Assembly: GCF_003987045.1 (NCBI RefSeq)
Contig: NZ_PIPZ01000001.1
Coordinates: forward strand, 682,001 to 746,000
DNA from: Pseudidiomarina marina
GTDB lineage: Bacteria > Pseudomonadota > Gammaproteobacteria > Enterobacterales > Alteromonadaceae
DNA: 64,000 nucleotides
Direction: 5' to 3'
Notes under the pieces: generated by a model
Seen by the model: the letters and a program-made list of their open reading frames with translations, nothing else
Told to the model about the DNA's origin: nothing
Database searches by the model: none
Shown: positions 17,239-61,696 of the stretch, in pieces
Layout of the letters: each line of letters begins with the position of its first letter
Position numbering within the stretch: position 1 is the stretch's first letter
Position numbers and translations under genes: made by a program

Positions 17239-17371
17239 CTGGTTACTGGTTACTGGTTACTGGTTACTCGTTATTCGTTGTTCGTTACTGGTTATTCGTA
17301 AAACGAAAAAGCCCGGCGTAAAACGCCGGGCCACCTCTAATATCTAATATCTAACAGCTAATATCGCTTTT
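17239..17371. repeat. Heptamer-repeat element A (metC-like / lysS junction)
   Basis: It starts within 2 nt of the preceding stop. Eight 7-bp units run from 17241 to 17296: four GGTTACT, then CGTTATT, CGTTGTT, CGTTACT and GGTTATT. A hairpin (17311-17331) occupies the middle. A second heptamer array follows at 17337-17371: CTAATAT twice, CTAACAG, CTAATAT and finally CGCTTTT. The left units match those of three other elements in this window, and the terminal GCTTTT is shared by all four. The two arms are not complementary here, unlike the other copies. Confidence 0.75.
17306..17331 (-). terminator. Rho-independent terminator after lysS
   Basis: GCCCGGCGT and ACGCCGGGC form a 9-bp GC-rich stem with a 3-nt loop. 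On the minus strand it is followed by five T residues. It lies about 45 nt after the lysS stop, inside repeat element A. The plus-strand side has no T run, so it serves lysS. Confidence 0.85.
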
Positions 17372-17375
17372 GCCG

Positions 17376-18884
17376 TTATTTACGTGGGCGCATGTGCGGG
17401 AACAACAACACATCACGAATTGACGGCGAATCAGTTAACAACATCACCAACCGATCAATCCCGATACCCTCACCCGCTGTTGGCGGTAAGCCGTGCTCCA
17501 GAGCGGTCACGTAATCTTCATCATAGAACATCGCTTCATCGTCACCCGCTTCTTTTTGCTGAACTTGTTCACGGAAGCGCTCTGCCTGATCTTCAGCGTC
17601 GTTAAGCTCCGAGAAGCCATTCGCCAGCTCACGTCCACCCACGAAGAACTCAAAGCGGTCGGTAATAAATGGGTCGTTATCGTTACGACGAGCCAATGGC
17701 GAAACCTCAGCTGGGTAAGCGGTAATAAAGGTTGGTTGCATTAGCTTGTGTTCCGCAACCTCTTCAAAAATCTCGATTTGGATTTTACCCAAGCCCCAAT
17801 TTGGCTTCACTTTAATGCCTAAAGATTCAGCCAATGCCGTTGCTTGCTCAATACTATTAAGCTGTGCATCGGTTGCTGCTGGCAGGTGCGCCAAAATCGC
17901 TTCTTTAACCGTCATTCGCGCAAACGGCTTACTGAAATCGTACTGAACCCCTTCACTTTCAAATTGCGCTGACCCTAGAATTTCGGTGGTCATGCCACGT
18001 AGCATATCTTCCGTTAAATCCATTAAGTCTTGGTAGTCTGCATAGGCCCAGTAGAACTCAAGCATCGTGAACTCTGGGTTGTGACGGGTGGATAGACCTT
18101 CGTTACGGAAGTTACGGTTAATTTCAAATACTTTTTCGAAACCGCCCACAACCAAGCGCTTCAGATAAAGCTCAGGCGCAATACGCAGATATAACTGCAT
18201 ATCTAAGGCATTATGATGCGTGACAAACGGACGCGCAGCAGCGCCGCCTGGAATGGTTTGCATCATCGGCGTTTCGACTTCCAAGAACTGCTTTTCAGCT
18301 AAGTAACGGCGAATGTAATCGACCACTTTTGAACGCACAATAAAGGTATTGCGAGACTCTTGATTAGTAATCAAATCCAAGTAGCGCTGACGATAGCGCA
18401 TCTCTTGGTCCGATAAACCATGGAACTTATCAGGTAACGGACGCAACGCCTTAGTCAATAGACGAACGTCATCAACTTGTACGCTCAACTCACCAGTTCC
18501 GGTGATAAACAGCGTTCCCGAGGCACCAACGATGTCACCGAGATCCCACTTTTTGAATTCTTCGTTATAAAAGCCTTCCGGCAGATTGTCGCGCGCCACA
18601 TACAGTTGAATTTGGCCCGACATATCTTGAATGGTTGCAAAACTAGCCTTGCCCATAATACGACGCGTCATCATACGACCAGCAACACTGACGCGAATGC
18701 CTTTCGCCGCGAGTTCTTCTTTCTCAGAACCATCAAACTGTTCATGCAATTCAGCAGCTAAACTGTCGCGACGGAAATCATTCGGGAATGCTACGCCTCG
18801 CTCGCGCAACGCAGCAAGCTTAGCCTTGCGCTGGGCGATTTGTTCATTGACGTCCAACTCAGGGGCTTGCGTTTTATCGTTCAT
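17376..18884 (-). CDS. lysS: Lysyl-tRNA synthetase
   Basis: Class II aminoacyl-tRNA synthetase charging tRNA-Lys. The protein has 502 residues (E. coli 505). An N-terminal OB-fold anticodon-binding domain ([22 protein letters not shown]) is followed by the class II core: motif 1 near [16 protein letters not shown], motif 2 [24 protein letters not shown], and motif 3 [13 protein letters not shown]. It is downstream of prfB in the conserved prfB-lysS operon, 47 nt away. Confidence 0.98.
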
Positions 18885-18903
18885 GGGTAAGTTTCCTCTT
18901 TTC

Positions 18904-18922
18904 GCAAGGCTTCAGGCCTTGC
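18904..18922 (-). other. Perfect hairpin in the prfB-lysS intercistronic region
   Basis: GCAAGGC and GCCTTGC form a 7-bp stem around 5 nt. On the minus strand GAAAAGAGG, which includes the lysS ribosome binding site, follows directly. There is no T run, so it is not a standard terminator; an RNA processing or translation-control role is possible. Confidence 0.5.
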
Positions 18923-18931
18923 AACTTCAAT

Positions 18932-20030
18932 TTATAAACCTGATTTCAAACTTGCTTCAATAAATGGGTCAAGCGCACCATCAAGTACCGCTTGCGTATT
19001 ACGGTTTTCAACACCGGTACGTAAATCTTTAATCCGTGCATCATCGAGCACGTAAGAGCGGATCTGACTGCCCCAACCAATATCTGACTTTGAATCTTCC
19101 AGCGCTTGTTTTTCAGCTAATTGCTTTTGCAATTCTAACTCAAACAACTTCGCTCGTAATTGCTTCATCGCCGCATCACGGTTTTTATGCTGTGAACGGT
19201 CGCTCTGGCACTGCACCACCACGCCGGTAGGTTCGTGTGTAATACGAATCGCCGAGTCAGTACGGTTAACGTGCTGACCACCGGCACCTGACGCACGGTA
19301 AGTATCGACGCGCAAGTCGGCCGGATTAATTTCAATTTCGATAGAGTCATCGACCTCTGGATAGACAAACACCGAAGCAAACGACGTATGCCGACGATTT
19401 CCTGAATCAAAAGGTGATTTACGTACTAATCGATGTACGCCGGTTTCGGTACGTAACCAACCGTAAGCATATTCACCTTGTACACGCACCGTGACTGATT
19501 TGATGCCAGCGACTTCACCTTCAGAAAGCTCCGTAATTTCCGCTTTAAAATCATGCGATTCGGCCCAGCGCAAATACATCCGCAACAACATGTTCGCCCA
19601 GTCTTGGGCTTCCGTACCACCCGAACCGGCTTGAATATCCAAATAACAGTCTGAGGCGTCATGATCGCCAGAAAACATTCTACGGAACTCGAGTGTTGCC
19701 AGTTGCCCTTCTAATTGGTCAAGTTCAGCAACCGCATCGTTATAAGTTTCTTCATCATCGGCTTCAACCGCCAATTCGACTAAACCCTCAACATCATCCA
19801 GCCCTTGCGCGAGATTGTTCAACGTTTCAACCACTTGTTCAAGACTCGCGCGCTCTTTCCCTAAGGCCTGAGCACGTTCTTGGTCGTTCCAAACGCTCGG
19901 GTCTTCAAGCTCACGAGTCACTTCTTCAAGGCGCTCTACTTTCTGAGTGTAGTCAAAGATACCCCCGAAGTAGCTCGCTGCGTTTACGCATTTCTTTTAT
20001 CGCAACATAAGTAGCATTCGTTTCGAACAT
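18932..20030 (-). CDS. prfB: Peptide chain release factor RF2, with programmed +1 frameshift
   Basis: Release factor for UGA and UAA codons. Translation starts at ATG 20030 ([19 protein letters not shown]), runs 25 codons to CTT, meets an in-frame TGA at 19955-19953, and resumes in the +1 frame at GAC ([16 protein letters not shown]). The total is 365 residues, the same as E. coli. The SPF tripeptide ([14 protein letters not shown]) and the GGQ motif ([12 protein letters not shown]) are present. Upstream of lysS as in E. coli; the 57-nt gap to recJ suggests its own or a shared transcript. Confidence 0.97.
19952..19970 (-). other. prfB autoregulatory frameshift site
   Basis: The minus strand reads CGG-GGG-TAT-CTT-TGA-C, the conserved slippery CTT, poor-context TGA and upstream Shine-Dalgarno-like G-rich element. 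Low RF2 favours a +1 shift from CTT-T. The arrangement at codons 25-26 is the same as in E. coli. Confidence 0.95.
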
Positions 20031-20087
20031 AGTTTTTCAATCTCAATAGCAAGTTGTTTGCATGGTTGTTCACAAAGGGGGCGTATT

Positions 20088-21800
20088 CTACCGCAAAGCG
20101 TAAAAATGCTCTAGTTGTAGCTGCACAGAAGTGCGTCCACGAAAGTGATTTAATTGAACTTTATAGGCAGCATGCACGCGCTGCACGGAATCATCAGGCC
20201 AGGTTTCTAAGTCAATATTAAATGCAATCGCATCAACAACCACACGTTGTGGCGTTTCAAGCACCAATTTCAAATGACGCTCCCCCACCAAACGTTGACT
20301 TACAATGCGGAACTCACCATCGAAAATCGGCTCCGGAAACCCTTGTCCCCACGGTCCATAAGCTTCCAATTGGCGCACAAATGGCTCTTGCAGATAATCC
20401 GCATCGAGCTCGCCGTCCGACCAAATGGTGCAAGTAAGCTCTTCGTCACCCAGCCAAGTTTCAACCTGTTGTGTAAACGCCTGTCGAAATTCGTTTAAAT
20501 TTTCGTGCGCGAGAGTCAGTCCAGCGGCCATAGCATGGCCACCGAACCGTTCAATTAAGTTTGGATGTAAGCTATGCACACGTTCTAAGACGTCGCGAAT
20601 ATGTAACCCCGGAATCGAGCGCGCCGACCCCTTTAAATAACCGTCGTCACTGTCGGCAAAGGCTATCACCGGTCGATGACATTGCTCTTTAACTCGCCCC
20701 GCTACGATACCAACTACGCCTTGATGCCAGCCTGCTTGGTAGAGCACCAGCGCGGCTGGTAATCGGTCACGGTCGGCATTGAGTTGTGCCACATAGGCTT
20801 CAGCTTCTTCACGCATTTCAGTTTCGATATTGCGACGCGCTTTATTTAACGCATCAAGTTGCAATGCGTATTGTTGGGCTTGCGTCAAATTATCCGCGAG
20901 CAAGCATTCTATGCCGGCGGCCATATCATCTAATCGCCCGGCGGCATTGATTCGTGGCCCGATAGCGAAGCCAAGATCGCTGGCTTGAAGCTGCTGTGGG
21001 TCACGGTTGGCAACCTGAAGTAATGCGGCGATGCCAGGACGGCAATAACCAGCCCGAATCCGCTGTAACCCCTGCTGCACCAAAATGCGGTTAACGCCAT
21101 CAAGTTTCACCACGTCAGCAACAGTACCAACTGCAACTAAGTCGAGCCATTGCGCTAAATTCGGTGTTTCGATGCCACGTTCACGCAGTTCATGACGCAA
21201 TGCCAACAGCACATAGAATGCAACGCCTACCCCAGCAATATTCGAGCTAGGAAAGTCACAGTTGGGCTGATTCGGATTGACAATAACATCGGCATTCGGC
21301 AATTCTGCGCCCGGCAAATGGTGATCAGTAATTATCACGGTCATACCCGCTGCTTTGGCTGCAGCAACTCCTGCATGACACGATATGCCGCTATCAACTG
21401 TCACGATTATCTGAGCGCCTTGCTGTTGTGCTTGTGCCACTACCGCTGGTGATAAGCCATAACCATCAGCGAAACGATTCGGCACAATATAACTAACCTG
21501 CGGCGCATCTAATGCCTGAAGTACCGAAACCATTAAAGCTGTCGATGTCGCGCCATCAGCATCAAAGTCGCCGCAAATACATATCGCTTGTTGCTGTAAA
21601 ATCGCATCAGCAAGAATCTTTGCCGCAACATCGGCACCTTTCAGCAAATTAAAGTGTGGTAAGTGCTTGGCTCCGAGATCCAGTTGCTGAGTTTCGGCAA
21701 TGCCTCGGCGAGCAAGAATTTGCGCCAATAGTGGCGGCATGCCAGAAGCCCAATCGCCGACTGCGACAGTGGGACGACGATGAATGCTGATATCAGTCAT
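20088..21800 (-). CDS. recJ: Single-stranded-DNA exonuclease RecJ
   Basis: 5'-3' ssDNA exonuclease of recombination and mismatch repair. The protein has 570 residues (E. coli 577). DHH-family motifs are visible: ICGDFDADGATSTAL, IIVTVDSGISCHAG, VIITDHHLPG, INPxxPNCDFPSSNIAGVGV and GFAIGPRINAAGRL. The DHHA1-like GRVKEQCHRPVIAF and FGGHAMAAGLTL segments follow. It starts 2 nt after dsbC ends. The xerD-dsbC-recJ order is conserved. Confidence 0.97.
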   Translation of the reverse strand: MTDISIHRRPTVAVGDWASGMPPLLAQILARRGIAETQQLDLGAKHLPHFNLLKGADVAAKILADAILQQQAICICGDFDADGATSTALMVSVLQALDAPQVSYIVPNRFADGYGLSPAVVAQAQQQGAQIIVTVDSGISCHAGVAAAKAAGMTVIITDHHLPGAELPNADVIVNPNQPNCDFPSSNIAGVGVAFYVLLALRHELRERGIETPNLAQWLDLVAVGTVADVVKLDGVNRILVQQGLQRIRAGYCRPGIAALLQVANRDPQQLQASDLGFAIGPRINAAGRLDDMAAGIECLLADNLTQAQQYALQLDALNKARRNIETEMREEAEAYVAQLNADRDRLPAALVLYQAGWHQGVVGIVAGRVKEQCHRPVIAFADSDDGYLKGSARSIPGLHIRDVLERVHSLHPNLIERFGGHAMAAGLTLAHENLNEFRQAFTQQVETWLGDEELTCTIWSDGELDADYLQEPFVRQLEAYGPWGQGFPEPIFDGEFRIVSQRLVGERHLKLVLETPQRVVVDAIAFNIDLETWPDDSVQRVHAAYKVQLNHFRGRTSVQLQLEHFYALR

Positions 21801-21802
21801 GA

Positions 21803-22534
21803 TTATTTATCAAGTTCCGCAGCAAGACGCTCAGGTGGAACATAGCCTGGTAGCATACGTCCCGACTCGAATACAATGGCCGGTGTGCCACGAACACCAA
21901 ACTTATGACCAAGTGCATAATGCTGCGCAACCGGATCATTACATGATGATGACGTTATTGTTTCGTCATTTTTTGCAGCGCTCAACGCAGCTTGTGGGTC
22001 ATCTGCACACCACGCATTCTTCAAATCACTCGCGGCGTTGCTCTGCATGCCGTTGCGCGGCCATGCTAAATAGCGCACCGAAATGCCCAAGGCAAGGTAT
22101 TCGTCGATGCGTTCGTGCAACTGTCGGCAATAGCCACAACTGGTGTCGGTAAATACATGAATTACATGCTTTTCGTTCGGCGCGGTATATTCAATCACAG
22201 TATCCTCAACCTGCGCTAAATCCTTCACTCGCATGGCTTCAAGTACCGCTTCGCTGACATTATTCGGCTCGCTGCCGGTAATTTCGTAAATACGACCACT
22301 GACAATATGACGCCCATCTTTACTGGCGTAAACTAAACCTTGATCGGTGATTACTTCCATCAAGCCATCGATATGGGCTGGACGTGCAGATTCCACCACA
22401 AACCCCATGCGCTGCATGTGGCTGGTATCAAATTCCTCATCCGCTACCTGTGCGTTCGGCGCGGTTGTGGCTGTTTGCTCAGGCGAGCACGCCAAGGCCA
22501 AAAAACTCAAACCAAAAACTGCCAAATACTTCAT
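21803..22534 (-). CDS. dsbC: Thiol:disulfide interchange protein DsbC
   Basis: Periplasmic disulfide isomerase. The 243-residue protein has an export signal ending at FLALAC, so it might be a lipoprotein, although the lipobox is not canonical (A at -3, L at -2). A dimerisation domain is followed by the thioredoxin fold with the active site TSCGYCRQLH. The second Cys pair (NAWCADDP and SSSCND) matches the structural disulfide of DsbC. The cis-proline loop is RGTPAIVF. It sits between xerD and recJ as in E. coli. Confidence 0.93.
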   Translation of the reverse strand: MKYLAVFGLSFLALACSPEQTATTAPNAQVADEEFDTSHMQRMGFVVESARPAHIDGLMEVITDQGLVYASKDGRHIVSGRIYEITGSEPNNVSEAVLEAMRVKDLAQVEDTVIEYTAPNEKHVIHVFTDTSCGYCRQLHERIDEYLALGISVRYLAWPRNGMQSNAASDLKNAWCADDPQAALSAAKNDETITSSSCNDPVAQHYALGHKFGVRGTPAIVFESGRMLPGYVPPERLAAELDK

Positions 22535-22568
22535 GAATTATCCTAATTTAACTGCTGTCGAATAGTAA

Positions 22569-23492
22569 CTAAGCACGCGGATGATGGCTTGCGTGTAATT
22601 GCTGCAAACGTTCGCGCGCAACATGTGTATAAATCTGTGTGGTTGATAAGTCACTGTGACCCAATAACATTTGTAACACCCGCAAATCGGCACCGTGGTT
22701 CAATAGGTGTGTTGCAAACGCATGACGTAATGTATGCGGCGACAAATGGGAACGTATATCTGCACGTTGGGCATAATAACGAATTCGATGCCAAAATGCT
22801 TGTCGCGTCAAAGGCCCTCCGCGACGTGTCACAAATACCCAGTCGCTGGGCTGCGCATGCAATTGCAGACGACCGTCTTGAAAATAGCGCTGTAACCAGT
22901 CTAAGGCTTCTTCACCTAATGGCACCAAGCGCTCTTTATTGCCTTTACCGACAACACGCACGAGCTCCTGCTGAAAGTGGATTTGATCGACTTGTAAGTT
23001 GACTAATTCGGTCACTCGCAATCCGGTTGCATACAATACTTCAAGCATGGCTTTGTCGCGAAGTTGTACCGGATCGTCAATATCGGGAGCGGTCAGTAAC
23101 GCTTCAACTTCCGCTTCAGACAAACTGTGTGGAATCGATTGTGGTTGTTTCGGGCGAGCCAAGCGTGTGGTCGGGTCACTCGTGCACAATCGCTCAGCTA
23201 CCGCATACTGATAGAATTTCTTCAGTGCGCTAAGCGCTCGAGAGGTACTACGTGGCGAAAAACCATTTTGCCTGCGCCACAACAAGTAGCGCTCAAGGTC
23301 TGTACTTGTTACTTGAAGCAATTGCGACTGTTGATATTCACTGAGAAAACGCTGAAAACTACGTAGATCAGTACGGTACGCTGCACTGGTGTGCTGACTC
23401 ACGCCCTGCTTTAACCACAACCGGTCAAGAAATCTAGCAATTTCTTCATCGACTTCAAGAGGTATAGCATCCACTGACTTTGCTGGGCTCAT
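22569..23492 (-). CDS. xerD: Site-specific tyrosine recombinase XerD
   Basis: With XerC it resolves chromosome dimers at dif under FtsK control. The protein has 307 residues (E. coli 298). An N-terminal SAM-like domain (FLDRLWLKQGVSQHTSAAYRTDL) precedes the catalytic domain with Arg (YATGLRVTEL), Lys (VVGKGNKERLVPL), His and Arg (LSPHTLRHAFATHLLNHG), and His and Tyr (LLGHSDLSTTQIYTHV). It heads the xerD-dsbC-recJ run. Confidence 0.96.
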   Translation of the reverse strand: MSPAKSVDAIPLEVDEEIARFLDRLWLKQGVSQHTSAAYRTDLRSFQRFLSEYQQSQLLQVTSTDLERYLLWRRQNGFSPRSTSRALSALKKFYQYAVAERLCTSDPTTRLARPKQPQSIPHSLSEAEVEALLTAPDIDDPVQLRDKAMLEVLYATGLRVTELVNLQVDQIHFQQELVRVVGKGNKERLVPLGEEALDWLQRYFQDGRLQLHAQPSDWVFVTRRGGPLTRQAFWHRIRYYAQRADIRSHLSPHTLRHAFATHLLNHGADLRVLQMLLGHSDLSTTQIYTHVARERLQQLHASHHPRA

Positions 23493-23537
23493 TGGTTCAC
23501 TTCGTTGTTAAATTCCAATGGCATCATCATAAACGGG

Positions 23538-23565
23538 TTTACAGCGACTCTCAATCTGCTATTAT
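23538..23565 (+). promoter_or_regulatory. Promoter of tRNA-Tyr with GC-rich discriminator
   Basis: TTTACA and TATTAT are separated by 16 nt, and GCCGCCC follows the -10. GC-rich discriminators are typical of stringently controlled stable-RNA promoters. The predicted start lies about 7 nt before the mature tRNA. Confidence 0.65.
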
Positions 23566-23578
23566 GCCGCCCTCGCGT

Positions 23579-23663
23579 GGAGGGGTTCCCGAGCGGTCAA
23601 AGGGATCAGACTGTAAATCTGACGGCTCAGCCTTCGCAGGTTCGAATCCTGCCCCCTCCACCA
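23579..23663 (+). tRNA. tyrT: tRNA-Tyr (anticodon GUA)
   Basis: Class II tRNA of 85 nt including an encoded CCA. The acceptor arm GGAGGGG pairs with CCCCTCC, with A as discriminator. The anticodon loop CTGTAAA (anticodon GTA at 23613-23615) is closed by an AGA/TCT-type stem. A long variable arm and the T arm GCAGG-TTCGAAT-CCTGC follow. It closely resembles E. coli tRNA-Tyr. It stands alone between two minus-strand genes. Confidence 0.97.
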
Positions 23664-23671
23664 CTTCTTTT

Positions 23672-24643
23672 CTACCAAACCAAAATTAGCTTACCCTGCG
23701 TGGCATTATCTCGTAATCGCTGAAAGGCTTGCTCAACCTCGCCAACCGGAATTACCTCATCAATATTTGGCGTTATTCTTGCTTGTTCAAATAACGGCCA
23801 AACATGAGCATATAACTCGGCCATTATGCGTGCTTTTACTTGCAGCGGCTGGCTTCTTAGGGTGCTACCAATAATACGTTGGCGTTTCATCAGTAATCTA
23901 CCGGCATCAAGTTGCGCCTCGCGCCCACCCATTAAACCAATAATAATTAAACGACCGTCTTGATTCAGCACTTGTTGATCCCATGCCACGTAATCGCCAG
24001 CAACTGGATCTAAAATGATATCGACACCACCCCATGCCTTCACCGCATCCACAAAGCTACCGTTGCGGCGATTCCACACTTTTTCTGCACCAAGTTGTTG
24101 TGCTTGAGCAAGTTTTTCGTCACTACCCGCGGTTGCGAAGGTTGGATTACCTCGTTCACGTGCTAGTTGTAACAAGGCTTGGCCAACGCCACTTGCCGCT
24201 GCATGGACGAGAATGCGTTCCCCCGGTTGTGCAGCCGCTAAACCGTAGACGTTATACCAAGCCGTGGCAAAAACCTCACAAATACCCGCTGCTTGCGCAA
24301 GATCCATTTTTGCCGGAACGGGTAATACTTGTGCTGCGGGTACGGCGACATACTCCGCATAGCCGCCACCGGTTAACAGCGCACACACGCGATCGCCAAC
24401 TTTAAAGGCTCCCACATTTGTGCCGACAACATGAACCACACCACTCACCTCTAAGCCAAGCACATCAGAGGCCCCTGGTGGCGGCGGGTAATGCCCCGCC
24501 AACTGCATTAAATCGGCTCGATTCATACCACTGTAGGCAACTTTAATGAGTATTTCGTCGGCAGCGACTTGTGGCTGTAGTCGGTGTTGCCATTGAACCT
24601 TCTGCTGCTCACCGGCAACAATGACTTGCATACTTGCAGACAT
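23672..24643 (-). CDS. NAD(P)H:quinone oxidoreductase (zinc-independent MDR family)
   Basis: Medium-chain dehydrogenase/reductase of the quinone oxidoreductase (Qor/PIG3) branch. The 323-residue protein has an N-terminal GroES-like domain (EILIKVAYSGMNRADLMQLAGHYPPPPG, LGLEVSGVV, GDRVCALLTGGGYAEY) and a Rossmann domain with HAAASGVGQALLQLA. No zinc-binding cysteine set is seen. The pattern NRADLMQxxGxYPPPPG points to the PIG3-like subgroup. Physiological substrate unknown. Its 3' end lies 8 nt from the tRNA. Confidence 0.88.
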   Translation of the reverse strand: MSASMQVIVAGEQQKVQWQHRLQPQVAADEILIKVAYSGMNRADLMQLAGHYPPPPGASDVLGLEVSGVVHVVGTNVGAFKVGDRVCALLTGGGYAEYVAVPAAQVLPVPAKMDLAQAAGICEVFATAWYNVYGLAAAQPGERILVHAAASGVGQALLQLARERGNPTFATAGSDEKLAQAQQLGAEKVWNRRNGSFVDAVKAWGGVDIILDPVAGDYVAWDQQVLNQDGRLIIIGLMGGREAQLDAGRLLMKRQRIIGSTLRSQPLQVKARIMAELYAHVWPLFEQARITPNIDEVIPVGEVEQAFQRLRDNATQGKLILVW

Positions 24644-24687
24644 AAGCTCTCCTTATTGAATGGCACCTCAGTGAAACCGAAACTTAG

Positions 24688-26474: not shown

Positions 26475-26563
26475 GACGATCTCCTTAAAGATAATTCGAA
26501 TGTCTTGGAATAGAGTATAACGGGTAAGTTATCGAATGATTATTGAGAAATTCGCGGCTTTAT

Positions 26564-26580
26564 ATTCGAAAAAATCGAAT
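26564..26580. promoter_or_regulatory. Palindrome upstream of yqjG-pirin, possible operator
   Basis: ATTCGA and TCGAAT form a perfect 6-bp inverted repeat around AAAAA. Related half-sites recur nearer the gene: ATTCGAAT at 26494-26501 and TCGAAT at 26532-26537. The 115-nt gap between yqjG and lpxB holds all of them. Repressor binding is speculation. Confidence 0.35.
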
Positions 26581-35667: not shown

Positions 35668-35668
35668 A

Positions 35669-40482: not shown

Positions 40483-40623
40483 GATAATTTTCCTTTTAAA
40501 GGGGTTATGCCTCCATACATCCCATAGTTCGACCCGCAACGTTCAATCGTGTTTTGGGCACCCCGAGCTATGTGTCGATGTATGTGTGTGTTTAAGTTAG
40601 TTTTCATGCAATCAGAAATTGCG
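40483..40623 (-). promoter_or_regulatory. rpsB leader, probable S2 autoregulatory (t44-type) RNA
   Basis: The predicted transcript has an untranslated leader of about 140 nt. Its end contains GGGATGTATGGAGGCATAACCCC-like pairing (GGGG at 40501-40504 against upstream C-rich and G-rich runs) just before the rpsB ribosome binding site. A conserved S2-binding leader (Rfam t44) is known for gammaproteobacterial rpsB. The match was made by eye and by position. Confidence 0.5.
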
Positions 40624-52980: not shown

Positions 52981-53008
52981 TATAAGTTACTTAACGATAA
53001 TAGCGAAA

Positions 53009-53039
53009 AGCCCAGTTCCTAACGGTTCTGGGCTTTTTT
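53009..53039 (+). terminator. Rho-independent terminator after isocitrate dehydrogenase
   Basis: AGCCCAG and CTGGGCT form a 7-bp stem, with partial extra pairing TCC/GGT inside, followed by six T residues. Confidence 0.88.
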
Positions 53040-53067
53040 AGATATGAATTAAAATGTGCTGTGGCAA

Positions 53068-54159: not shown

Positions 54160-54174
54160 TCATAACCCCTTGGT

Positions 54175-54306
54175 AAAAGCGTTATTCGTTATTCGATCGC
54201 TTCGCTGTTCGAACGCTGCGCTCTTCGTGGTTTGGTTCCACGAACAGCGCGAAGAGCGCACGAACAGTGAACGAAGTGAACGGACGACTAGCGAACAACG
54301 CTTTTT
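54175..54306. repeat. Heptamer/palindromic repeat element B
   Basis: It fills the gap between rlmM and the hydrolase. The left end AAAAGC-GTTATTC-GTTATTC and the right end CGAACAACGCTTTT are near-complementary. A perfect inner hairpin (TTCGTGG 54224-54230, CCACGAA 54238-54244) lies at the centre, and GCGCTCTTCG/CGAAGAGCGC adds a further pairing. Its right arm shares ACGAACAGTGA (54260-54270) with element C. The right end encodes the last codons and stop of the hydrolase gene. Confidence 0.8.
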
Positions 54307-54923
54307 ATTAGTTTCGATACTTCGTTTACTGCTGCTTGCCATAACTGCTCGCGCGTATAGCCACTGCGCTTCGTTGGCTCAAGACTATGATCACCACCCT
54401 CAATCCATTTTACCGCAACATTCGCCGGCATTTGATAATGGCGTACCTGTTCAGGCTTACCAAAGTTATCGCGCGTTCCTTGAATAATCAGGTTCTGTTC
54501 ACAGCGATTATTTAAGTCATCCAGTCTAAGATTGTCAGGTTTACCAATTGGATGAAATGGAAAGCCTAAGGCGATGGCGGCTTTAGCATTCAGTTCATCA
54601 GCAAGCCGAAAAGCTACCCGCGAGCCCATTGACTTACCCATTAAAAACAAAGGTTTATCATCATTGAACTGGCTTGCTACGATGCGCATACAATGCTCGA
54701 GTTCCGGCATTCGATTCGGCGGGCGACGCACACCTGAATCCATAAATTTTTGCCAATATGGAAAATTAAAGCGAATCACTTCAATATCATTAAGCGCCAA
54801 TGCTAACGCGACATATTGCATAAAATCGCTTTGTAAACCAGCACCTGCACCGTGTGCAAAAATCACCCGATATTGACCATCGGCGTTATCGCGATGAATC
54901 GCAACACGCTGGTTATCACTCAT
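54288..54923 (-). CDS. Alpha/beta hydrolase (KANL3/Tex30-like)
   Basis: The 211-residue protein has the alpha/beta hydrolase core: RVIFAHGAGAGLQSDFM (oxyanion strand), nucleophile elbow GKSMGSRVA, Asp region IIQGTRDNFG and His region EGGDHSLEP. This pattern is that of the COG3571-type hydrolases. Substrate unknown. It overlaps gcvA by 8 nt. Its final KSVVR and stop are encoded by repeat element B. Confidence 0.87.
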   Translation of the reverse strand: MSDNQRVAIHRDNADGQYRVIFAHGAGAGLQSDFMQYVALALALNDIEVIRFNFPYWQKFMDSGVRRPPNRMPELEHCMRIVASQFNDDKPLFLMGKSMGSRVAFRLADELNAKAAIALGFPFHPIGKPDNLRLDDLNNRCEQNLIIQGTRDNFGKPEQVRHYQMPANVAVKWIEGGDHSLEPTKRSGYTREQLWQAAVNEVSKLIKSVVR

Positions 54924-55815
54924 AACTGTCCTCTTCTTCCTCGACTACTTGTAGTAGCCAATTTCGGAAGGTGGCGATTTTACCTACTTCTGACTGAGAG
55001 TCACGACAAACAAGATAAAAAGATTTTTGTCGCGGTAATGCTTCAGGGAATATTTGAATCAAATGCCCCGCATCAATTTCCGGTTTAACCAATACGTTAT
55101 TCGCTAACGCAATGCCCTGCCCATGTACAGCTGCTTTTAATGCTAAGTTAGAATGGCTGAAAATTGGGCCGTTATCGCCTTTATCTTTATCAATACCAAC
55201 CAACTTAAACCAATCTTTCCAAGCGTTGCGAGTTTCATCATGTAGCAACGTGTGATTCAATAAATCGCGCGGTTCACGCAGAGGCTTGGTACCGTTAAGT
55301 AACAGTGGCGAACATACTGGAATCAGGTATTCATTGTGCAACTTGTAGGCTTTTAAGCCCGGCCATTTGCCAGCACCGTAATAAATAGCAACGTCGACAT
55401 CATCGGTAAGTGAGCCATCCACTTCATCAACGGCGCGAATGCGCACATCGATATCCGGATAAGCCTCACGAAATCGACTCAAGCGCGGCACGAACCATAA
55501 AATGGCAAAACTTGGGGGTAATGAAATCGTTAGCGAGCCTCGTTGACTCGCAAACTTCACCTTTTCAGTGGCCTGAACAATGTGATCAAAAATTTCTTTT
55601 AGTTCAAGATAGTAGGTTTGGCCTTCGGGGGTGAGTAACAACGACCGATTGCGGCGTAAGAATAATTGAACCCCCAAAAACTCCTCTAGCGCTTTTACTT
55701 GGTGACTCACCGCTGCTTGGGTAACAAACAATTCATCAGCTGCCCTCGTAAAACTGAGGTGTCGGGCAGCTGCTTCAAACGCTTTTAAGGCATTTAATGG
55801 GGGTAATTTACGCAT
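54916..55815 (-). CDS. gcvA: LysR-type regulator GcvA
   Basis: Regulator of the glycine cleavage system in E. coli. The 299-residue protein starts with the helix-turn-helix LPPLNALKAFEAAARHLSFT, RAADELFVTQAAVSHQVKALE, close to E. coli GcvA. The effector domain has PSFAILWFVPRLSRFR, DDVDVAIYYGAGKWPGL and FSHSNLALKAAVHGQGIALANN. It sits 9 nt after the SDR gene, so it could be co-transcribed with the catabolic cluster, but its neighbourhood with rlmM is the ancestral one. Confidence 0.93.
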   Translation of the reverse strand: MRKLPPLNALKAFEAAARHLSFTRAADELFVTQAAVSHQVKALEEFLGVQLFLRRNRSLLLTPEGQTYYLELKEIFDHIVQATEKVKFASQRGSLTISLPPSFAILWFVPRLSRFREAYPDIDVRIRAVDEVDGSLTDDVDVAIYYGAGKWPGLKAYKLHNEYLIPVCSPLLLNGTKPLREPRDLLNHTLLHDETRNAWKDWFKLVGIDKDKGDNGPIFSHSNLALKAAVHGQGIALANNVLVKPEIDAGHLIQIFPEALPRQKSFYLVCRDSQSEVGKIATFRNWLLQVVEEEEDSYE

Positions 55816-55824
55816 CAGTACTCG

Positions 55825-56589
55825 TTATAGTCGAACGCCACCGTCTATTTCTATCACACGTCCGCTAAAGAAGTCATTCTCAATAATATAACGCGCACTG
55901 TGAGCAATCTCTTCTGGCTGCCCCCAACGACGTAACGGCACCATGCTCAAGGCTCGTTCCACGGCTTCTGGCTTCATTTGCGCAGTCATTGGCGTTTCGA
56001 TAAATCCTGGTGCAATGGCACCACAACGAATACCAAAGCGACCCAGCTCACGTGCCCATGTCACCGTCATCGCAACCACACCGGCTTTCGTTGCCGCATA
56101 GTTCGTTTGGCCAATGTTGCCGGCACGCGCGACGCTCGAAATATTAATGATAACGCCGCCATTGCCAGCTTTTGCCATATGCGCAGACGCCTCGCGGCCG
56201 CACAAGAAGCTACCGGTTAGGTTAACATCTAGCACAGATTGAAATTGTTGCAGTGGCATTTTGTGAGTAATTTCACCGTCTTTGCATTTAATCAACATGC
56301 CGTCGCGCAAAATACCGGCGTTATTGATCAGCACGTTAACCGCACCAATGTCTGCAACGATATCATTAAACACCTGCTCAACTGCTGCCTCGTCGGTCAC
56401 GTTAACCACGTAACCTTTTACTTTCTTAGCACCTTTAGCGCTGCAAATACCTTCCGCTTCAGTAAGCGTATCGGCATTCATATCAATCAGCGCCAATTGC
56501 GCGCCCTCAGCGGCAAAATGTTCCGCCATTGCGCGGCCTAAACCTTGTGCGCCACCGGTAATTACAATGGTACTTTCAGCAATTTTCAT
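55825..56589 (-). CDS. ivdG: SDR oxidoreductase, probable 3-hydroxyacyl-CoA dehydrogenase (IvdG-like)
   Basis: The 254-residue short-chain dehydrogenase has TGGAQGLGRAMAEHFA (NAD binding), NNAGILRDGM, the catalytic Ser (NISSVARAG) and YAATKAG (Tyr-x3-Lys). It looks FabG-like, but its place after mmsB in the branched-chain cluster matches ivdG of Shewanella, assigned to 2-methyl-3-hydroxybutyryl-CoA oxidation in isoleucine breakdown. The function is inferred from context. It starts 21 nt after mmsB. Confidence 0.8.
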   Translation of the reverse strand: MKIAESTIVITGGAQGLGRAMAEHFAAEGAQLALIDMNADTLTEAEGICSAKGAKKVKGYVVNVTDEAAVEQVFNDIVADIGAVNVLINNAGILRDGMLIKCKDGEITHKMPLQQFQSVLDVNLTGSFLCGREASAHMAKAGNGGVIINISSVARAGNIGQTNYAATKAGVVAMTVTWARELGRFGIRCGAIAPGFIETPMTAQMKPEAVERALSMVPLRRWGQPEEIAHSARYIIENDFFSGRVIEIDGGVRL

Positions 56590-56610
56590 AATTTATCCGC
56601 TAATTATCCG

Positions 56611-57504
56611 TTATTTTTTATTCGCTTTAACGAAATTAAAGATACTCGAGAAGTCTTCGCGACCATGTCCGAGCTGCGACCAACTGCGATATAAATTGTG
56701 CGTCAATCCACCCATTGGCGTCGCCGCGCCACTCGCTAACGCAGCTTGTTGCGCCAAACCAAGATCTTTACTCATGAGATCAACTAAAAAGCCACCTTGG
56801 TAGCCGTTGCTCGATGGCACATTATCCATCACACCAGGGCAAGGATTATATACATCTAAAGTCCAGTTACTACCGGAACTCTTCGACATAATCTCCGAAA
56901 GCACTTTCGGGTCAAGCCCATGAGCAATACCCAATTGTAGCGCTTCTGAAGTACCGACCATCAACACCGACAGCAACATGTTATTGCAAATTTTCGCAAC
57001 TTGACCCGCACCCGTATCACCAGCGCGGAAAATGTTTTTCCCCATGTGCTGCAATACATATCGCGCACGCTCTACTGCAGCGGTTTCACCACCACAAATG
57101 AACGTTAATGTGCCGGCTTTCGCCCCACCAACACCTCCAGAAACTGGCGCATCGATAAACGAAATATTTTCCGCTGCTAATGCCTGTCCAACCTTTCGTG
57201 CGGTTTCTGCGCTAATGGTACTGCAATCGATTACAAGCGTGCTGCTAGGCAATTCGTGAATCAAGCCGTTATCACCTAAATAAACACTCTCAACGTGTTT
57301 ATCTGCAGGTAACATCGTAATCACAAAATCAACGCCGTGCGCTGCTTCATTCGCCGAACTGGCCACGCGACAACCTGCATCTTTCGCAGCCTGCAGTGCC
57401 GCTTCGGCTAAATCAAAGACGTTGACCTGATGGCCGCCTTTGACAAGGTTCGCAGCCATCGGGCCGCCCATATTGCCAAGCCCAATAAATCCAACATTCG
57501 CCAT
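56611..57504 (-). CDS. mmsB: 3-hydroxyisobutyrate dehydrogenase MmsB
   Basis: Oxidises 3-hydroxyisobutyrate to methylmalonate semialdehyde in valine catabolism. The 297-residue protein has the N-terminal VGFIGLGNMGGPMAANLVKGG, the DAPVSGGVGGAKAGTLTFICGG substrate block, the catalytic Lys in GAGQVAKICNNMLL, and KDLGLAQQAA. It belongs to the beta-hydroxyacid dehydrogenase family. Repeat element C lies directly upstream of its ribosome binding site (GAGG). Confidence 0.94.
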   Translation of the reverse strand: MANVGFIGLGNMGGPMAANLVKGGHQVNVFDLAEAALQAAKDAGCRVASSANEAAHGVDFVITMLPADKHVESVYLGDNGLIHELPSSTLVIDCSTISAETARKVGQALAAENISFIDAPVSGGVGGAKAGTLTFICGGETAAVERARYVLQHMGKNIFRAGDTGAGQVAKICNNMLLSVLMVGTSEALQLGIAHGLDPKVLSEIMSKSSGSNWTLDVYNPCPGVMDNVPSSNGYQGGFLVDLMSKDLGLAQQAALASGAATPMGGLTHNLYRSWSQLGHGREDFSSIFNFVKANKK

Positions 57505-57512
57505 AAAAACCT

Positions 57513-57667
57513 CGTTATTCGTTGTTCGTTATTCGTTGTTCGTTATTCGTCCGCTTCGCTGTTCGTTATTCGTCCGCATCGCTGTTCGTGCGCTGCGCTG
57601 TTCGAATAGTGCGAAGCACGTACGAACAGTGAGCGAAGCGAACGCACGAATAACGAATAACGCTTTT
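57513..57667. repeat. Heptamer/palindromic repeat element C
   Basis: It fills the gap between the 3-hydroxyisobutyryl-CoA hydrolase and mmsB. It begins with five heptamers alternating CGTTATT and CGTTGTT (57513-57547). A 23-bp unit at 57541-57563 repeats at 57564-57586 with one mismatch. The right arm (57622-57667) is the inverted form and ends CGAATAACGCTTTT. The arms can pair over most of their length. ACGAACAGTGA (57622-57632) is shared with element B. Confidence 0.82.
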
Positions 57668-57668
57668 A

Positions 57669-58793
57669 TCACTTACCTAAAGTTGCGAGTGGGTGTTCGC
57701 TTGCCGCCCACGGCGACGTGAAAAAGCCATCAACCTCTTCCGCCGAAACCTCACCAACCGAACCATGCTGCCACTTTGGCTGCTTATCTTTATCAATTAA
57801 CAACGCCCGAATACCCTCAGCGAAATCACCGCGCATCGCACATTGAACCGATAATGTTAATTCAAGACGGAAGCAGTCAGCTAAACTCAAATCAGCACCG
57901 TGTTGTAATTGATTCCATACAATATGCGCCGTCATTGGACAACCTGCAGCTAGTGTTTGACGTGCACGAGCAAGCCATTTGTCATCCGTCTTGTCATTCA
58001 CGATTGCTGTGACAACCGACTCGATATCCGCGCCATGCGTTAACTTTTTAATTAATTGCTGATGCGCTTCTACCTGTCCAGCCGGTCGTTGACTGCTATC
58101 GCGCATGCCAATACCGTTGAGAACATCGGTTACTTTCTGGTGGTTTAGTGCCGCCGTATCACCCCACTTTATGTCTTTTAAACCGGCAAGCACATCGTCT
58201 TTGCTGGTGCTCGCCACAAAGTGATCAGCTAACTTGAGATACAGTGCATCAGTGGCATTCATGTGCGCGCCAGTAAGACCTAAAAACAGACCACAGCCAT
58301 CAGGCATTTGGTTCAAGAAGTGGGTTGCACCAACATCAGGATATAAACCGATCGTTATCTCAGGCATCGCCAATAGCGAACGCTCAGTCACAATCCGATG
58401 GCTCGCACCGTTCATCAGGCCCATGCCACCACCCATGACAATGCCATGCCCCCAAAGCACAATTGGCTTAGGGAAAGTGTGAATGGCGTAGTCGAGTCGA
58501 TATTCTTGGCTAAAAAAGTCAGCAACTTCGTCAACAAGTACACCTGGCTTCGCTTGCATGGCTTTGTACATGGCAACAATATCGCCACCAGCACAGAAAG
58601 CTTTTTCGCCGGCACCTTGCATAAATACACAGGCTATGGCGTCATCGTCTGCCCACTGCTGCAATTTCGGTAGCAAAAGTTGAATCATTGGCAAGCTCAA
58701 CGCATTCAATGATTTTTCTGAATTCAGCGTGATCACACCAATGCGCTTGCCGTTGCTTGCTTCAAGCTCGTCGAACAATACTACTGGATCCAT
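57669..58793 (-). CDS. ivdE: 3-hydroxyisobutyryl-CoA hydrolase / enoyl-CoA hydratase family
   Basis: The 374-residue protein is a long crotonase of the HIBCH type. It has NSEKSLNALSLPMI, GAGEKAFCAGGDIVAMY (oxyanion loop), GIVMGGGMGLMNGASHRIVTE and MPEITIGLYPDVGATHFLNQMPD. Most enoyl-CoA hydratases have about 260 residues, so length and cluster favour HIBCH. It releases CoA from 3-hydroxyisobutyryl-CoA in valine breakdown. It begins 32 nt after the acyl-CoA dehydrogenase; no separate enoyl-CoA hydratase is present in the cluster. Confidence 0.88.
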   Translation of the reverse strand: MDPVVLFDELEASNGKRIGVITLNSEKSLNALSLPMIQLLLPKLQQWADDDAIACVFMQGAGEKAFCAGGDIVAMYKAMQAKPGVLVDEVADFFSQEYRLDYAIHTFPKPIVLWGHGIVMGGGMGLMNGASHRIVTERSLLAMPEITIGLYPDVGATHFLNQMPDGCGLFLGLTGAHMNATDALYLKLADHFVASTSKDDVLAGLKDIKWGDTAALNHQKVTDVLNGIGMRDSSQRPAGQVEAHQQLIKKLTHGADIESVVTAIVNDKTDDKWLARARQTLAAGCPMTAHIVWNQLQHGADLSLADCFRLELTLSVQCAMRGDFAEGIRALLIDKDKQPKWQHGSVGEVSAEEVDGFFTSPWAASEHPLATLGK

Positions 58794-58825
58794 TATGACC
58801 TCCTTTTAAGACAGAAAAGCCACCC

Positions 58826-59983
58826 TTAAAGGATGGCTCGGTCCATATCGGCGAGTAAGCGGCGTGCAATGATCACCCGCATAATTTCGTTGGTGCCTTC
58901 AAGAATTTGATGCACGCGGACATCGCGCACATGACGTTCCAGTGGATACTCTTTGATGTAACCGTAACCGCCGTGAATTTGCAGCGCTTCATTACATACT
59001 TGGAAACCAACGTCAGTGGCAAACCGTTTTGCCATCGCACAATAGGTCGTTTTGTCCGGATCGTTGCTATCCACTTTAAACGCTGCCAGGCGAACCATTT
59101 GGCGCGCAGCAACAAGCTCGGTTGCCATATCAGCAAGCTTAAACTGTAACGCTTGGAAATGTCCCAACTCTTTGCCAAACTGCGTACGTTCGTGCATATA
59201 GTTCGTTGCAGTTTCCAACGCCGCTTGCGCTGTTCCGACAGAACATACCGCGATATTAATCCGACCGCCGTCCAATCCCATCATAGCGAATTTGAAGCCT
59301 TCACCTTCTTCGCCAAGCAGATTAGCTGCTGGAATTCGAACATCTTCGAAGGTAACCAAGCGTGTCGGCTGAGCATTCCAGCCCATTTTCGCTTCTTTTT
59401 TACCGTAACTAATACCCGCCGCATCGGCTGGTACAACAAACGCAGAAATACCTTTCGGACCAGCTTCGCCGGTGCGCGCCATAACGACTAATACGTCGGT
59501 ACTACCAGCACCTGAGATGAACATTTTCGAACCGTTTAACACATACTCATCGCCATCTTTCTTTGCGGTGGTGCGTAAACTTGCTGCGTCAGAGCCGGCA
59601 CCTGGCTCAGTTAAGCAGTAAGAGCCTAACTTTTCACCCGTAACCAATTCTGGAACCCATTGTTCAATTACATCTGGTTTCGCAAACGAACCAATCATCC
59701 ATGTGACCATGTTGTGAATGGTCATCATGGCGGTGGTTGCCGTACAGCCCATCGATAACTGCTCAAAAATCAACGCAGCGTCTAATCGGCTCATGCCGAA
59801 GCCGCCCGCGTCTTCTGGGGTATACATGCCCATAAAGCCCATTTCACCAGCTTTACGGAATACCTCAATTGGGAAGTGTGATTCTTCGTCCCATTGTGCA
59901 GCAAACGGGGCTAGTTCTTTCTCAGCAAAAGCTTTTGCCGTATCGACAAAAGCTTGTTGGTCGTCAGTTAAATTAAAATTCAT
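58826..59983 (-). CDS. ivdC: Acyl-CoA dehydrogenase (isobutyryl-CoA type)
   Basis: FAD enzyme desaturating branched-chain acyl-CoA. The 385-residue protein shows CLTEPGAGSDAASLRT, FISGAGSTDVLVVMARTG, the FAD region ERTQFGKELGHFQALQFKLADM and QIHGGYGYIKEYPLERHVRD. The catalytic Glu is likely in QILEGTNEIMRVIIARR. Substrate assignment comes from the mmsA/mmsB context. It lies 12 nt after mmsA. Confidence 0.9.
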   Translation of the reverse strand: MNFNLTDDQQAFVDTAKAFAEKELAPFAAQWDEESHFPIEVFRKAGEMGFMGMYTPEDAGGFGMSRLDAALIFEQLSMGCTATTAMMTIHNMVTWMIGSFAKPDVIEQWVPELVTGEKLGSYCLTEPGAGSDAASLRTTAKKDGDEYVLNGSKMFISGAGSTDVLVVMARTGEAGPKGISAFVVPADAAGISYGKKEAKMGWNAQPTRLVTFEDVRIPAANLLGEEGEGFKFAMMGLDGGRINIAVCSVGTAQAALETATNYMHERTQFGKELGHFQALQFKLADMATELVAARQMVRLAAFKVDSNDPDKTTYCAMAKRFATDVGFQVCNEALQIHGGYGYIKEYPLERHVRDVRVHQILEGTNEIMRVIIARRLLADMDRAIL

Positions 59984-59995
59984 GACAACGTCCTA

Positions 59996-61495
59996 TTACT
60001 TCAAATGAATCGTCATATTTGGACCATTGGCATCAGCGATATCGCTTTCAAACCAACGCGCAGTAATGGTTTTGGTTTCACTGTAGAAACGCACCGCTTG
60101 CTTACCATAAGCATGCAAATCACCAAAGAACGAACCTTTCCAGCCAGTGAATGAGAAGAACGGCAATGGTACCGGAATTGGAATATTGATACCGACTTGA
60201 CCCACTTCAACATTGTGCTGGTATTTGCGCGCCGCGGCGCCGCTAGCAGTGAAAATTGAAGTGCCATTACCATAAGGATTCGCATTCACTAGTGCCAGCG
60301 CGTCATCGAGTGTTTCAACTTCAGTGGCACAAAGTACCGGTCCAAAAATCTCGTTCTTATAGATTTCCATATCGGTCGTTACTTTACTAAACATCGTTGG
60401 GCCAACCCAATTACCATTCGGGAATCCATCCACTTTACAATCACGACCGTCCACTAAGAGCTCAGCGCCCTCTTTCTGACCTTGTGTGATGAAGTTTTCT
60501 ACCCGTTGCTTCGCTTGTGGACTGATCAATGGACCGTATGCCGCATTTGTATCATTCCAGGCCCCTGGCTTCACTTTCGCCAATTCTGCTGCAACTTCAG
60601 GAATCCACTCACGTGCTGCGCCAACGAATACCGCGACAGAAATCGCCATACAACGTTGCCCTGCAGCACCAACCGAGGCACCAACCAAGTTGCTGATCAC
60701 TTGTGATTTGTTTGCATCAGGCATGATCACGCAATGGTTTTTCGCACCCGCAAATGCTTGCACGCGTTTCATGTTTTCAGTGCCACGACGATAGATGTAT
60801 TGACCTACTGCCACAGAACCAACAAACGAAATCGCGCGTACCGCTGGCTCATCTAGTAAGAAATCAACCTGCTCTTTACCACCGTGAATCACCTGCAACA
60901 CACCTTTCGGAGCGCCTGCTTGCTCGAACAATTCAACCAAACGCGTTGGCGTTAAAGGATCTTGCTCAGATGGCTTCAAAATAAATGTATTACCGCAGGC
61001 AATTGCCAATGGGAACATCCAAAGTGGAATCATCGCTGGGAAGTTAAATGGCGTAATACCTGCACACACGCCAAGTGGCTGCGTATAGCTATAGCTGTCA
61101 ATGCCGCGCGCAACGTTTTCAACCGTTTCCCCCATCAACAATGATGGAATATTGGCTGCGTGTTCAACCACTTCGATGCCGCGCCATACGTCGCCCTTCG
61201 CATCATCAAACGTCTTGCCTGTTTCGCTCGCAAGAATTTCAGCAATTTCATCATGGTGCTCTTTCAGCAACGCTTGATAACGCATCATCACACGAGCGCG
61301 CTCAGAAACCGGCACTTCTTTCCAAGTCAAAAACGCTTTTTTCGCGCTCTCAACCGCTTTCTTCATCTCGTCCTGTGTTGCACAAGGTGCTTGCGCAATC
61401 ACTTCTTGCGTGGCCGGGTTGGTCACGTCAATCCAGTTACTGGTGTTCGACTGCACGAATTCGCCGTCGATAAATAAAGGAACTTTCTTGCTCAT
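59996..61495 (-). CDS. mmsA: Methylmalonate-semialdehyde dehydrogenase MmsA
   Basis: CoA-acylating aldehyde dehydrogenase converting methylmalonate semialdehyde to propionyl-CoA in valine (and thymine) catabolism. The 499-residue protein has the catalytic Cys282 in [25 protein letters not shown] and [24 protein letters not shown] (in part) are characteristic of the MMSDH subgroup. It has AGAGG eleven nt upstream and heads the mmsA-acd-ivdE-mmsB-ivdG run. Repeat element D lies upstream. Confidence 0.97.
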
Positions 61496-61518
61496 CTGTA
61501 TAACCTCTTTATTGAATT

Positions 61519-61696
61519 CGTTACTCGTTATTCGTTATTCGTTATTCGTTATTCGTTATTCGTTATTCGAAAAAGACTAAAACCAACAAATATGGTTCAA
61601 AAATTCTCACATCGAAAAGCGCTCAAACCTCGATACAGAGTTAACGAGCGAACAACGCTCACGAATAACCAATAACGAATAACGACTAACGCTTTT
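61519..61696. repeat. Heptamer/palindromic repeat element D
   Basis: The left part is CGTTACT followed by six perfect CGTTATT units (61519-61567). A spacer of about 75 nt follows. The right part (61641-61696) holds inverted units (CGAATAAC, CAATAAC, CGAATAAC, GACTAAC) and ends in GCTTTT. It lies between the divergent mmsA and araC genes. The spacer holds no gene I can support. Confidence 0.82.

Follow-up and report, generated by a model that had tools for sequence, protein, structure and literature searches.

What is inherited between two bacterial genes when the spacer is filled by a repeat: the sequence or the place? The question is raised by a window of 64,000 nucleotides from Pseudidiomarina marina (contig NZ_PIPZ01000001.1, positions 682,001-746,000; the window means this whole stretch), in which four intergenic loci, elements A to D, carry tandem 7-bp units within palindromic sequence. 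Discussions of repeated intergenic palindromes usually treat them as insertions, subject to gain and loss. In the present case, the slot between the genes is inherited across a clade of species and its filling is replaced by an unrelated family. We suspect that the fillings are palindromes past stop codons, similar to repetitive extragenic palindromic (REP) sequences and miniature inverted-repeat transposable elements (MITEs), that sit in inherited slots and are swapped by short-tract recombination. We infer the mechanism and function from sequence comparison, and put the probability of this reading at roughly 0.4.

The fillings belong to four families: H1 consists of GTTATTC-type heptamers, H2 of GATATTA-type heptamers, H3 is a 16-mer hairpin core and H4 is a REP of the GTAG kind. 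The families were detected with regular expressions widened by hand over successive comparisons, so that weak elements are counted slightly differently from one comparison to another; slots are named by their coordinate on the P. marina contig (C1). For the comparison with Pseudidiomarina tainanensis, 424 kb of joined P. marina sequence was set against a syntenic, inverted region of 446 kb, with 398 conserved genes whose amino-acid identity has a median of 93.7%, giving 397 pairs of orthologous neighbours. Elements of H1, H2 or H3 lie in 32 of these pairs in P. marina and in 28 in P. tainanensis, and 28 pairs are occupied in both, where 2.3 would be expected (P = 5e-39). For the 137 spacers of at least 60 bp in both genomes, the same three counts are 29, 27 and 27, with 5.7 expected (P = 1e-26). 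H4 was not scored in the 397-pair count of arm families; later scoring placed it in four of the 397 pairs, two of them counted already. Two of the four slots scored as occupied in P. marina only (859521 and 947387) do hold H2-like sequence in P. tainanensis. Element calls number 31 in real spacers and 0-1 per trial in dinucleotide-shuffled spacers (10 trials).

At the 28 common slots the arm family agrees at 9 and differs at 19 (H1 GTTATTC versus H2 GATATTA). Element-free spacers stay aligned between the two species, with a median BLAST coverage of 0.98 and 8 of 107 under 50%, as compared with 12 of 28 element slots under 50%; thus the turnover is concentrated at the element slots and is not general spacer decay. 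At slot 832292, arms of differing families flank the same promoter-like region in both genomes, and the third unit GTTAATC is found in P. tainanensis. The P. tainanensis slot orthologous to 805381 has a GTAG REP palindrome beside an H1 right arm, another hybrid filling. Slot 746713, which lies 713 bp beyond the window end, holds H2 in both species with the core in opposite orientation (alignment score 20 inverted versus 5 direct, with 0 of 1000 shuffles reaching 20), as if the core flips between inverted arms. Insertions of 6 kb at 1072054 in P. marina and at 945452 in P. tainanensis do not match each other.

Genus membership was assigned via named orthologous loci, and the nearest relatives identified in this way are P. 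tainanensis, P. gelatinasegens, P. donghaiensis, P. woesei and two metagenome-assembled genomes, 34-48-12 (MAG34) and P03SST1bin.20 (P03). In two blocks comprising 101 spacers, 17 slots are occupied in at least one of the seven taxa, and H1, H1/H3, H2 and H4 alternate in them. For instance, H4 fills 1033142 and 1062985 in P. donghaiensis and P. woesei, and at 1086179 it is found in P. marina, P. tainanensis and P. donghaiensis, with H2 in P. gelatinasegens and P. woesei. When slots filled in both members of a pair are considered, the arm family is the same at 4 of 7 for P. donghaiensis and P03 (92% nucleotide identity over five genes), 2 of 7 for P. marina and MAG34 (88%), 5 of 7 for MAG34 and P. 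tainanensis (86%) and 5 of 15 for P. marina and P. tainanensis (84%).

On the species tree, ((woesei,(donghaiensis,P03)),(gelatinasegens,(tainanensis,(marina,MAG34)))), seven swaps are polarised by outgroups. Four of them replaced H2 with H1 in P. marina (743496, 1039126, 1052201 and 1067286), where MAG34 and P. tainanensis keep H2; the swap at 1067286 is read from family states, because its spacers are too long for the similarity comparison, which omitted spacers above 320 bp. H2 also gave way to H1/H3 in P. donghaiensis at 1025429 (H2 is common to P. woesei and P03, with a similarity of 0.92) and in P03 at 1039126 (H2 is common to P. donghaiensis and P. woesei, similarity 0.98), and H4 gave way to H2 in P03 at 1062985, by reading of the aligned slots. 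An eighth candidate, H1 to H2 in MAG34 at 1072054, is uncounted because the P. marina spacer there holds the 6-kb insertion. Within a family, similarity is 0.711 in the same slot (n = 34) versus 0.613 in different slots (n = 337) for H2, and 0.674 (n = 13) versus 0.556 (n = 125) for H1. Slots B, C and D hold no element in another ten species or strains of the genus, and P. gelatinasegens has short one-armed remnants at B and 1025429. No target-site duplication was seen, and the element-free slots of the clade contain remnants or are too diverged.

The genes beside the slots bear no clear trace of the swaps, and thus the tract that is exchanged corresponds roughly to the slot. Gene identity at 0-100 bp from swapped slots deviates from the pair mean by -0.003 (193 flank comparisons) and by -0.012 at 200-400 bp; the deviation is +0.004 at unswapped slots and -0.035 at slots with gain or loss. 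At slot D, the 100-bp flanks of P. marina and MAG34 are 100% and 98% identical though the element was swapped. At 1052201, by eye, the P. marina H1 allele and about 25 bp of its left flank group with P. donghaiensis and P03, against the species tree, and the sequence farther left groups with P. tainanensis and MAG34. Similarly, by eye, P. marina and P. woesei appear to share one H1/H3 allele at slot C (739505), and P. tainanensis, P. donghaiensis and P03 one H2 allele, each reaching to the start codon, so that here too the allele and nearest flank group against the species tree. The cases at 1052201 and C, judged from these groupings, point to short-tract transfer between species; at the remaining slots, the data are compatible with transfer, with ectopic conversion and with deletion followed by insertion. 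Upstream of the element at 1052201, seven sequences have an identical block of about 50 bp, CACTGACCAAATTCTGTCCATTTTCACCTAGGGCGCGCATTTTAGCACTTTT, which precedes a putative NqrA-like gene.

The elements belong to a large group with a regular build. An H1 element runs from AAAAGC through an arm of, most often, four GTTATTC units, a variable core and the inverted arm to GCTTTT; the commonest units are GTTATTC, GTTATTG, GTTGTTC and GTTACTC. By a rule of at least two units per arm and arms within 260 bp, applied to the window and to stretches around matches in the P. marina genome, there are 54 two-armed H1 elements with a total length of 69-228 bp; A and B are absent from this set because their right arms do not satisfy it. 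Exactly four units are present in 54 of the 108 arms, and one arm has as many as 10. Fifteen of the 54 cores measure 83-86 bp, and 11 of those fall within a 15-member set with a common sequence (type-2). The remaining cores consist of 16-mer hairpin units (the H3 type, seen in B and C) or of hairpins with T-runs, or they are short spacers. A profile built from the 15 type-2 cores recovers exactly its own members (E-values 1e-16 to 6e-8) and has no match in 446 kb of P. tainanensis or in the loci taken from 17 other genomes; as it found only the set it was built from, it adds no new members and shows only the absence of the sequence elsewhere in the searched DNA. By inspection, one type-2 core lies at slot 1062985 of MAG34. 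H2 elements consist of GATATTA-GCTATTG-GATATTA-GATATTA, a core and the inverted arm, and an exact probe finds 42 in P. marina, a looser one 135 in P. tainanensis, with controls at 0 in both.

Exact counts were controlled with the reversed pattern. In P. marina, GTTATTCGTTATTCG has 130 sites (79 + 51), versus 0 + 0 for its control, and AAAAGCGTTATTCG with at most two mismatches has 133, versus 30. Among 59 genomes searched (P. marina, 25 others of the genus Pseudidiomarina/Idiomarina, 9 of the family and 24 of the order), the H1 15-mer is present in 18 of the 25, 0 of the 9 and 1 of the 24, this last genome having one 15-mer match and one control match. A class-wide sample adds one positive among 368 other genomes, with two copies, both about 60 bp or less from a contig start. 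The initial annotation, which saw a dispersed, foldable family of palindromes, is supported, and the family is restricted to the genus; its copies extend well beyond the four loci of the window and into related species. Near three contig ends (L031 160-256, L081 160-250 and L086 1173-1242) there are very similar H1 elements with the same 21-bp core, perhaps beside repeated ribosomal RNA operons that break the assembly. An autonomous copy was sought between widely spaced H1 arms, and the candidate was set aside: in the one case of about 800 bp read by eye (L061 2734-3622), between opposite H1 arrays lies another degenerate short tandem array, CTAATACCTGA-like.

In two genomes, the median distance from the ends of the arrays is 11 nt to stop codons (n = 48 ends) versus 52 nt to starts (n = 46 ends), so the closeness to stop codons and ribosome binding sites that had been proposed stands for the stops, and the starts are farther away. 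We suspect that the elements are non-autonomous and REP/MITE-like, and that their long palindromes may break or collapse during replication. Gene conversion or short-tract recombination would then fill the slot anew with the sequence of a different element, in some cases one donated by another species. As part of the mRNA, the element would form a 3'-end hairpin that is tolerated, perhaps mildly useful, for transcript ends because it falls just past the stop codon.

Several points weigh against this account. There is no covariation in the arms or the type-2 core (RNAalifold term +0.1, and 2 of 21 pairs doubly changed, in 15 elements), and arms match at 0.882 within one element versus 0.895 between elements, with 1997 of 2000 permutations at or above the observed value. 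A selected RNA stem is therefore unproven, and it is as if perfect palindromes were avoided. Slot 746713 has element-like calls in 4 of the 10 further taxa (homiensis, CB1, atlantica and insulisalsae), which means that not every slot is specific to the clade. Outgroup spacers at B and C are mostly about 10-60 bp and element-free, and thus the element has no essential function at those slots. Of the seven taxa, two are represented by metagenome-assembled genomes; the flank comparisons depend on one another; and only at two slots, judged by eye, was an allele seen to be common to different species. Neither an intermediate of recombination nor a donor tract was observed, and exchange that depends on RecA does not usually involve such short tracts.

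A bolder version, which we consider unlikely, holds that the slots are exchange sites at which a putative enzyme or break-repair route recognises slots that a palindrome already fills and swaps what they contain, with H1 now displacing H2 in the P. marina lineage; H1, H1/H3, H2 and even GTAG REPs would be interchangeable cassettes at fixed post-stop positions. Alternatively, unrelated small mobile families, each with its own putative transposase, may have hit tolerant post-stop spacers in series while old copies were deleted, a scenario that we find possible but doubtful. It is consistent with families that have no common core yet occupy the same slots, GTAG REPs with a REP-associated tyrosine transposase (RAYT) among them, with the 15 similar type-2 cores at separate sites of one genome, and with the collapse of elements by deletion; the REP within A and the one beside the H1 arm at 805381 of P. 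tainanensis also give the impression of having inserted into, or alongside, an older element. However, borders nearly coincide between families (the left border at D is identical in P. marina, P. tainanensis and MAG34), and swapped arms around a native promoter region, as at 832292, are hard to obtain by insertion of whole elements. The enzymes argue the same way. A search for a REP-type transposase, as had been proposed, found no Y1 match (PF01797) in P. marina, P. gelatinasegens or MAG34, and 1-2 in four relatives; reverse transcriptase (PF00078) has no match in P. marina and is found in 7 of 26 genus genomes. No mover of H1 or H2 in P. marina was therefore found among Y1 and reverse transcriptase, other transposase families not having been searched. 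Of the six Y1 genes in relatives, three sit among H4 REPs (in P. tainanensis, P. donghaiensis and P. woesei), as is classical for REPtrons; no element of H1-H4 lies closer than about 2 kb to the other three, and no Y1 gene adjoins H1 or H2. As a RAYT is located among its REPs, H4 is of a known kind, and H1 and H2 are without a known mover. Of the suggestion that the elements are remnants of mobile elements, the dispersal of copies and their exchange in place agree with it, but no mobilising enzyme was found. At three loci in three species (L227, L229 and L231), RAYT genes lie among GTAGCCCGGCGT REPs beside putative Hsp15/Hsp33-like genes; P. marina has GTAGCCCGGCGT-type REPs but no Y1 match.

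The fillings could instead be kept as terminators or mRNA 3'-end protectors of the upstream gene, any palindrome serving while the sequence turns over, and this we regard as distinctly unlikely. The position about 11 nt past stops fits, as does strong folding relative to shuffles (median z of -6.8 for 21 P. marina elements and -5.6 for 15 of P. tainanensis), and a T-rich, GCTTTT-type outward end is clearest at the stop side. At slot 897991, behind a cluster of five tRNAs, the two species seem to use different heptamers for the stem of a T-tract terminator, and REPs located no more than 15 nt from a stop have been described as stalling ribosomes (PMC12306157). But the T-rich end is weaker at the start side, 6 of 32 P. 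marina slots lie between divergent genes with no stop codon, and outgroups have no element at B and C. A GC-rich stem with a T-run is formed, by eye, by some cores (A on the minus strand, and 897991) and not by arms generally. The hairpin role suggested at the outset thus has the folding in its favour and the lack of covariation against it. With evolution in place, by point mutation, slippage and arm-to-arm copying, H1 and H2 would be two forms of a single orthologous element; in its favour, GTTATTC differs from GATATTA at just 2 of 7 positions, copy number varies up to 10 per arm, A is a hybrid, and P. tainanensis has the third unit GTTAATC. This explanation is already disfavoured and seems very improbable: cores change along with arms at many slots, copy number peaks at four without decay, arm-to-arm copying predicts a closer match within elements, the opposite of what was found, and H4 is unrelated to the heptamers. 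We give very little credence to the idea that the heptamer arrays are DNA-level sites for a nucleoid or chromosome-organising protein. Exact H1 15-mer loci on C1 are uneven about dif (7 in 582 kb versus 20 in 590 kb on the other side, P = 0.02), but placement goes with stop codons, and the slots are filled in turn by families that differ in sequence, so that sequence-specific binding would not be conserved.

In the window itself, the four loci have the tandem SGTTRYT-type units that the initial annotation described, in exact arrays of 8, 2, 5 and 7 units, and all end in GCTTTT; ACGAACAGTGA is common to B and C, as it also noted. Its inverted right side in three loci holds for C and D, but the right arm of A is of the H2 kind (TAATATC) and that of B is one unit, GAACAAC. 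Element A is a hybrid of three kinds: an H1 arm, a GTAG-REP palindrome and an H2 arm. The GTAG tag of this REP is intact in P. tainanensis and degenerate or lost in P. marina. That no named REP family was recognised at the outset fits H1 and H2, whose ends (AAAAGC / GCTTTT-like) lack the GTAG (CTAC) tag that H4 has, but not the core of A. An alpha/beta hydrolase takes its stop codon (54288-54290) and its final residues, KSVVR, from the right end of B (54288-54305); in P. gelatinasegens, where element B has shrunk, the end of this gene differs. The core of D is somewhat type-2-like in alignment, yet it is missed by the type-2 profile. Rfam, searched with the window and with ten element loci, gave no family matching any element; elsewhere in the window it placed t44 RNA (RF00127, 79.6 bits) at 40504-40606 on the minus strand and a tRNA at 23579-23660 on the plus strand.

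Table 1. Parts of elements A to D, in window coordinates, and the genes on either side (Pfam).
Feature	Position	Strand	Description
Element A left arm	17242..17297	+	8 H1-type heptamers (GTTACTG/GTTATTC), exact tandem array
Element A core	17311..17331	-	palindrome GCCCGGCGT-AAA-ACGCCGGGC of GTAG REP (H4), then T-run on minus strand, terminator-like
Element A right arm	17336..17371	-	H2 heptamers (TAATATC units) and GCTTTT end
Genes flanking A			Cys/Met-metabolism PLP enzyme; class II (D/K/N) tRNA synthetase
Element B left end	54175..54194	+	AAAAGC and 2 H1 heptamers (array 54181-54194)
Element B core	54195..54292	.	16-mer hairpin units of H3 type, GTNCGCTTCGCTGTTC; includes TAG stop of gene 54288-54923
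Element B right arm	54293..54305	-	single unit GAACAAC and GCTTTT end
Genes flanking B			RlmM; alpha/beta hydrolase
Element C left arm	57514..57548	+	5 H1 heptamers; next to likely ribosome binding site of gene 56611-57504, on its upstream side
Element C core	57549..57647	.	99 bp, H3-type 16-mer hairpins
Element C right arm	57648..57667	-	2 inverted heptamers (57648-57661) and GCTTTT; adjoins stop codon of gene 57669-58793
Genes flanking C			hydroxyisobutyrate-type dehydrogenase; enoyl-CoA hydratase
Element D left arm	61520..61568	+	7 H1 heptamers
Element D core	61569..61662	.	94 bp
Element D right arm	61663..61696	-	4 inverted heptamers (exact array 61663-61683, fourth unit to 61690) and GCTTTT end
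Genes flanking D			aldehyde dehydrogenase; AraC-type regulator

MITEs are non-coding, with terminal inverted repeats and dispersed copies. The elements are like them in all three respects, the 54 two-armed elements having terminal inverted repeats in dispersed copies; unlike MITEs, their arms are tandem arrays, they are replaced in place, and no autonomous partner was found in the searches for Y1 and reverse transcriptase. Switched intergenic regions, or horizontal regulatory transfer, were reportedly described by Oren et al. in 2014. In such regions, non-homologous sequences alternate between the same gene pair, at odds with the gene tree and regardless of the genes beside them (PMC5890482, PMC9944727), and our slots are similar in their non-homologous alternatives between the same genes, the conflict with the species tree and the unaffected flanks. 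Our case differs in that what is switched consists of dispersed palindromic repeats, the alternatives are those of different species, and the switching is concentrated in the element slots.

The nearest published analogue is the GGGAATC / GGGGA(Y)T heptamers of Xanthomonas and Nostoc, which are intergenic tandem repeats with four units preferred, form convergent inverted pairs (70 in Xcc and 75 in Xac), lie nearer the preceding open reading frame and are in the majority found between the same genes in two species (PMC4692102). Tandem heptamers with a mode of four and convergent pairs are common to both systems. However, those heptamers are G-rich and quadruplex-forming and the units here are AT-rich with no run of three Gs; the sections consulted mention length and sequence variation between the two species, and no family exchange or conserved cores (PMC4692102). 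GTAG REPs, BIMEs (bacterial interspersed mosaic elements) and REPtrons are likewise dispersed intergenic palindromes, some near stop codons (PMC3733652, PMC12306157). Unlike GTAG REPs, given there as 20-40 bp (PMC3733652), the H1-armed elements reach 69-228 bp with tandem heptamer arms and no GTAG tag, and H1 and H2 occur in genomes without a Y1 match. Dispersed 7-bp tandem repeats beside genes are also known from Beggiatoaceae, where TAACTGA direct repeats mostly point at start codons (PMC4679880), and from Geobacter, whose four-heptamer elements are also found inside genes (PMC2700814); in the available parts of these two reports no exchange is mentioned, unlike for the elements here. Our literature searches, which did not extend to subscription journals, turned up no publication that names these elements in either Idiomarina or Pseudidiomarina.

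From the perspective of spacer evolution, it is the position that is inherited and the content that changes fast, as two taxa of 92% nucleotide identity keep the arm family at just four of the seven slots that both occupy. These slots are a natural, countable system in which spacers are rewired without touching the genes. Whether REP-like elements are kept for their hairpin or merely tolerated is now testable via the contents of the slots.

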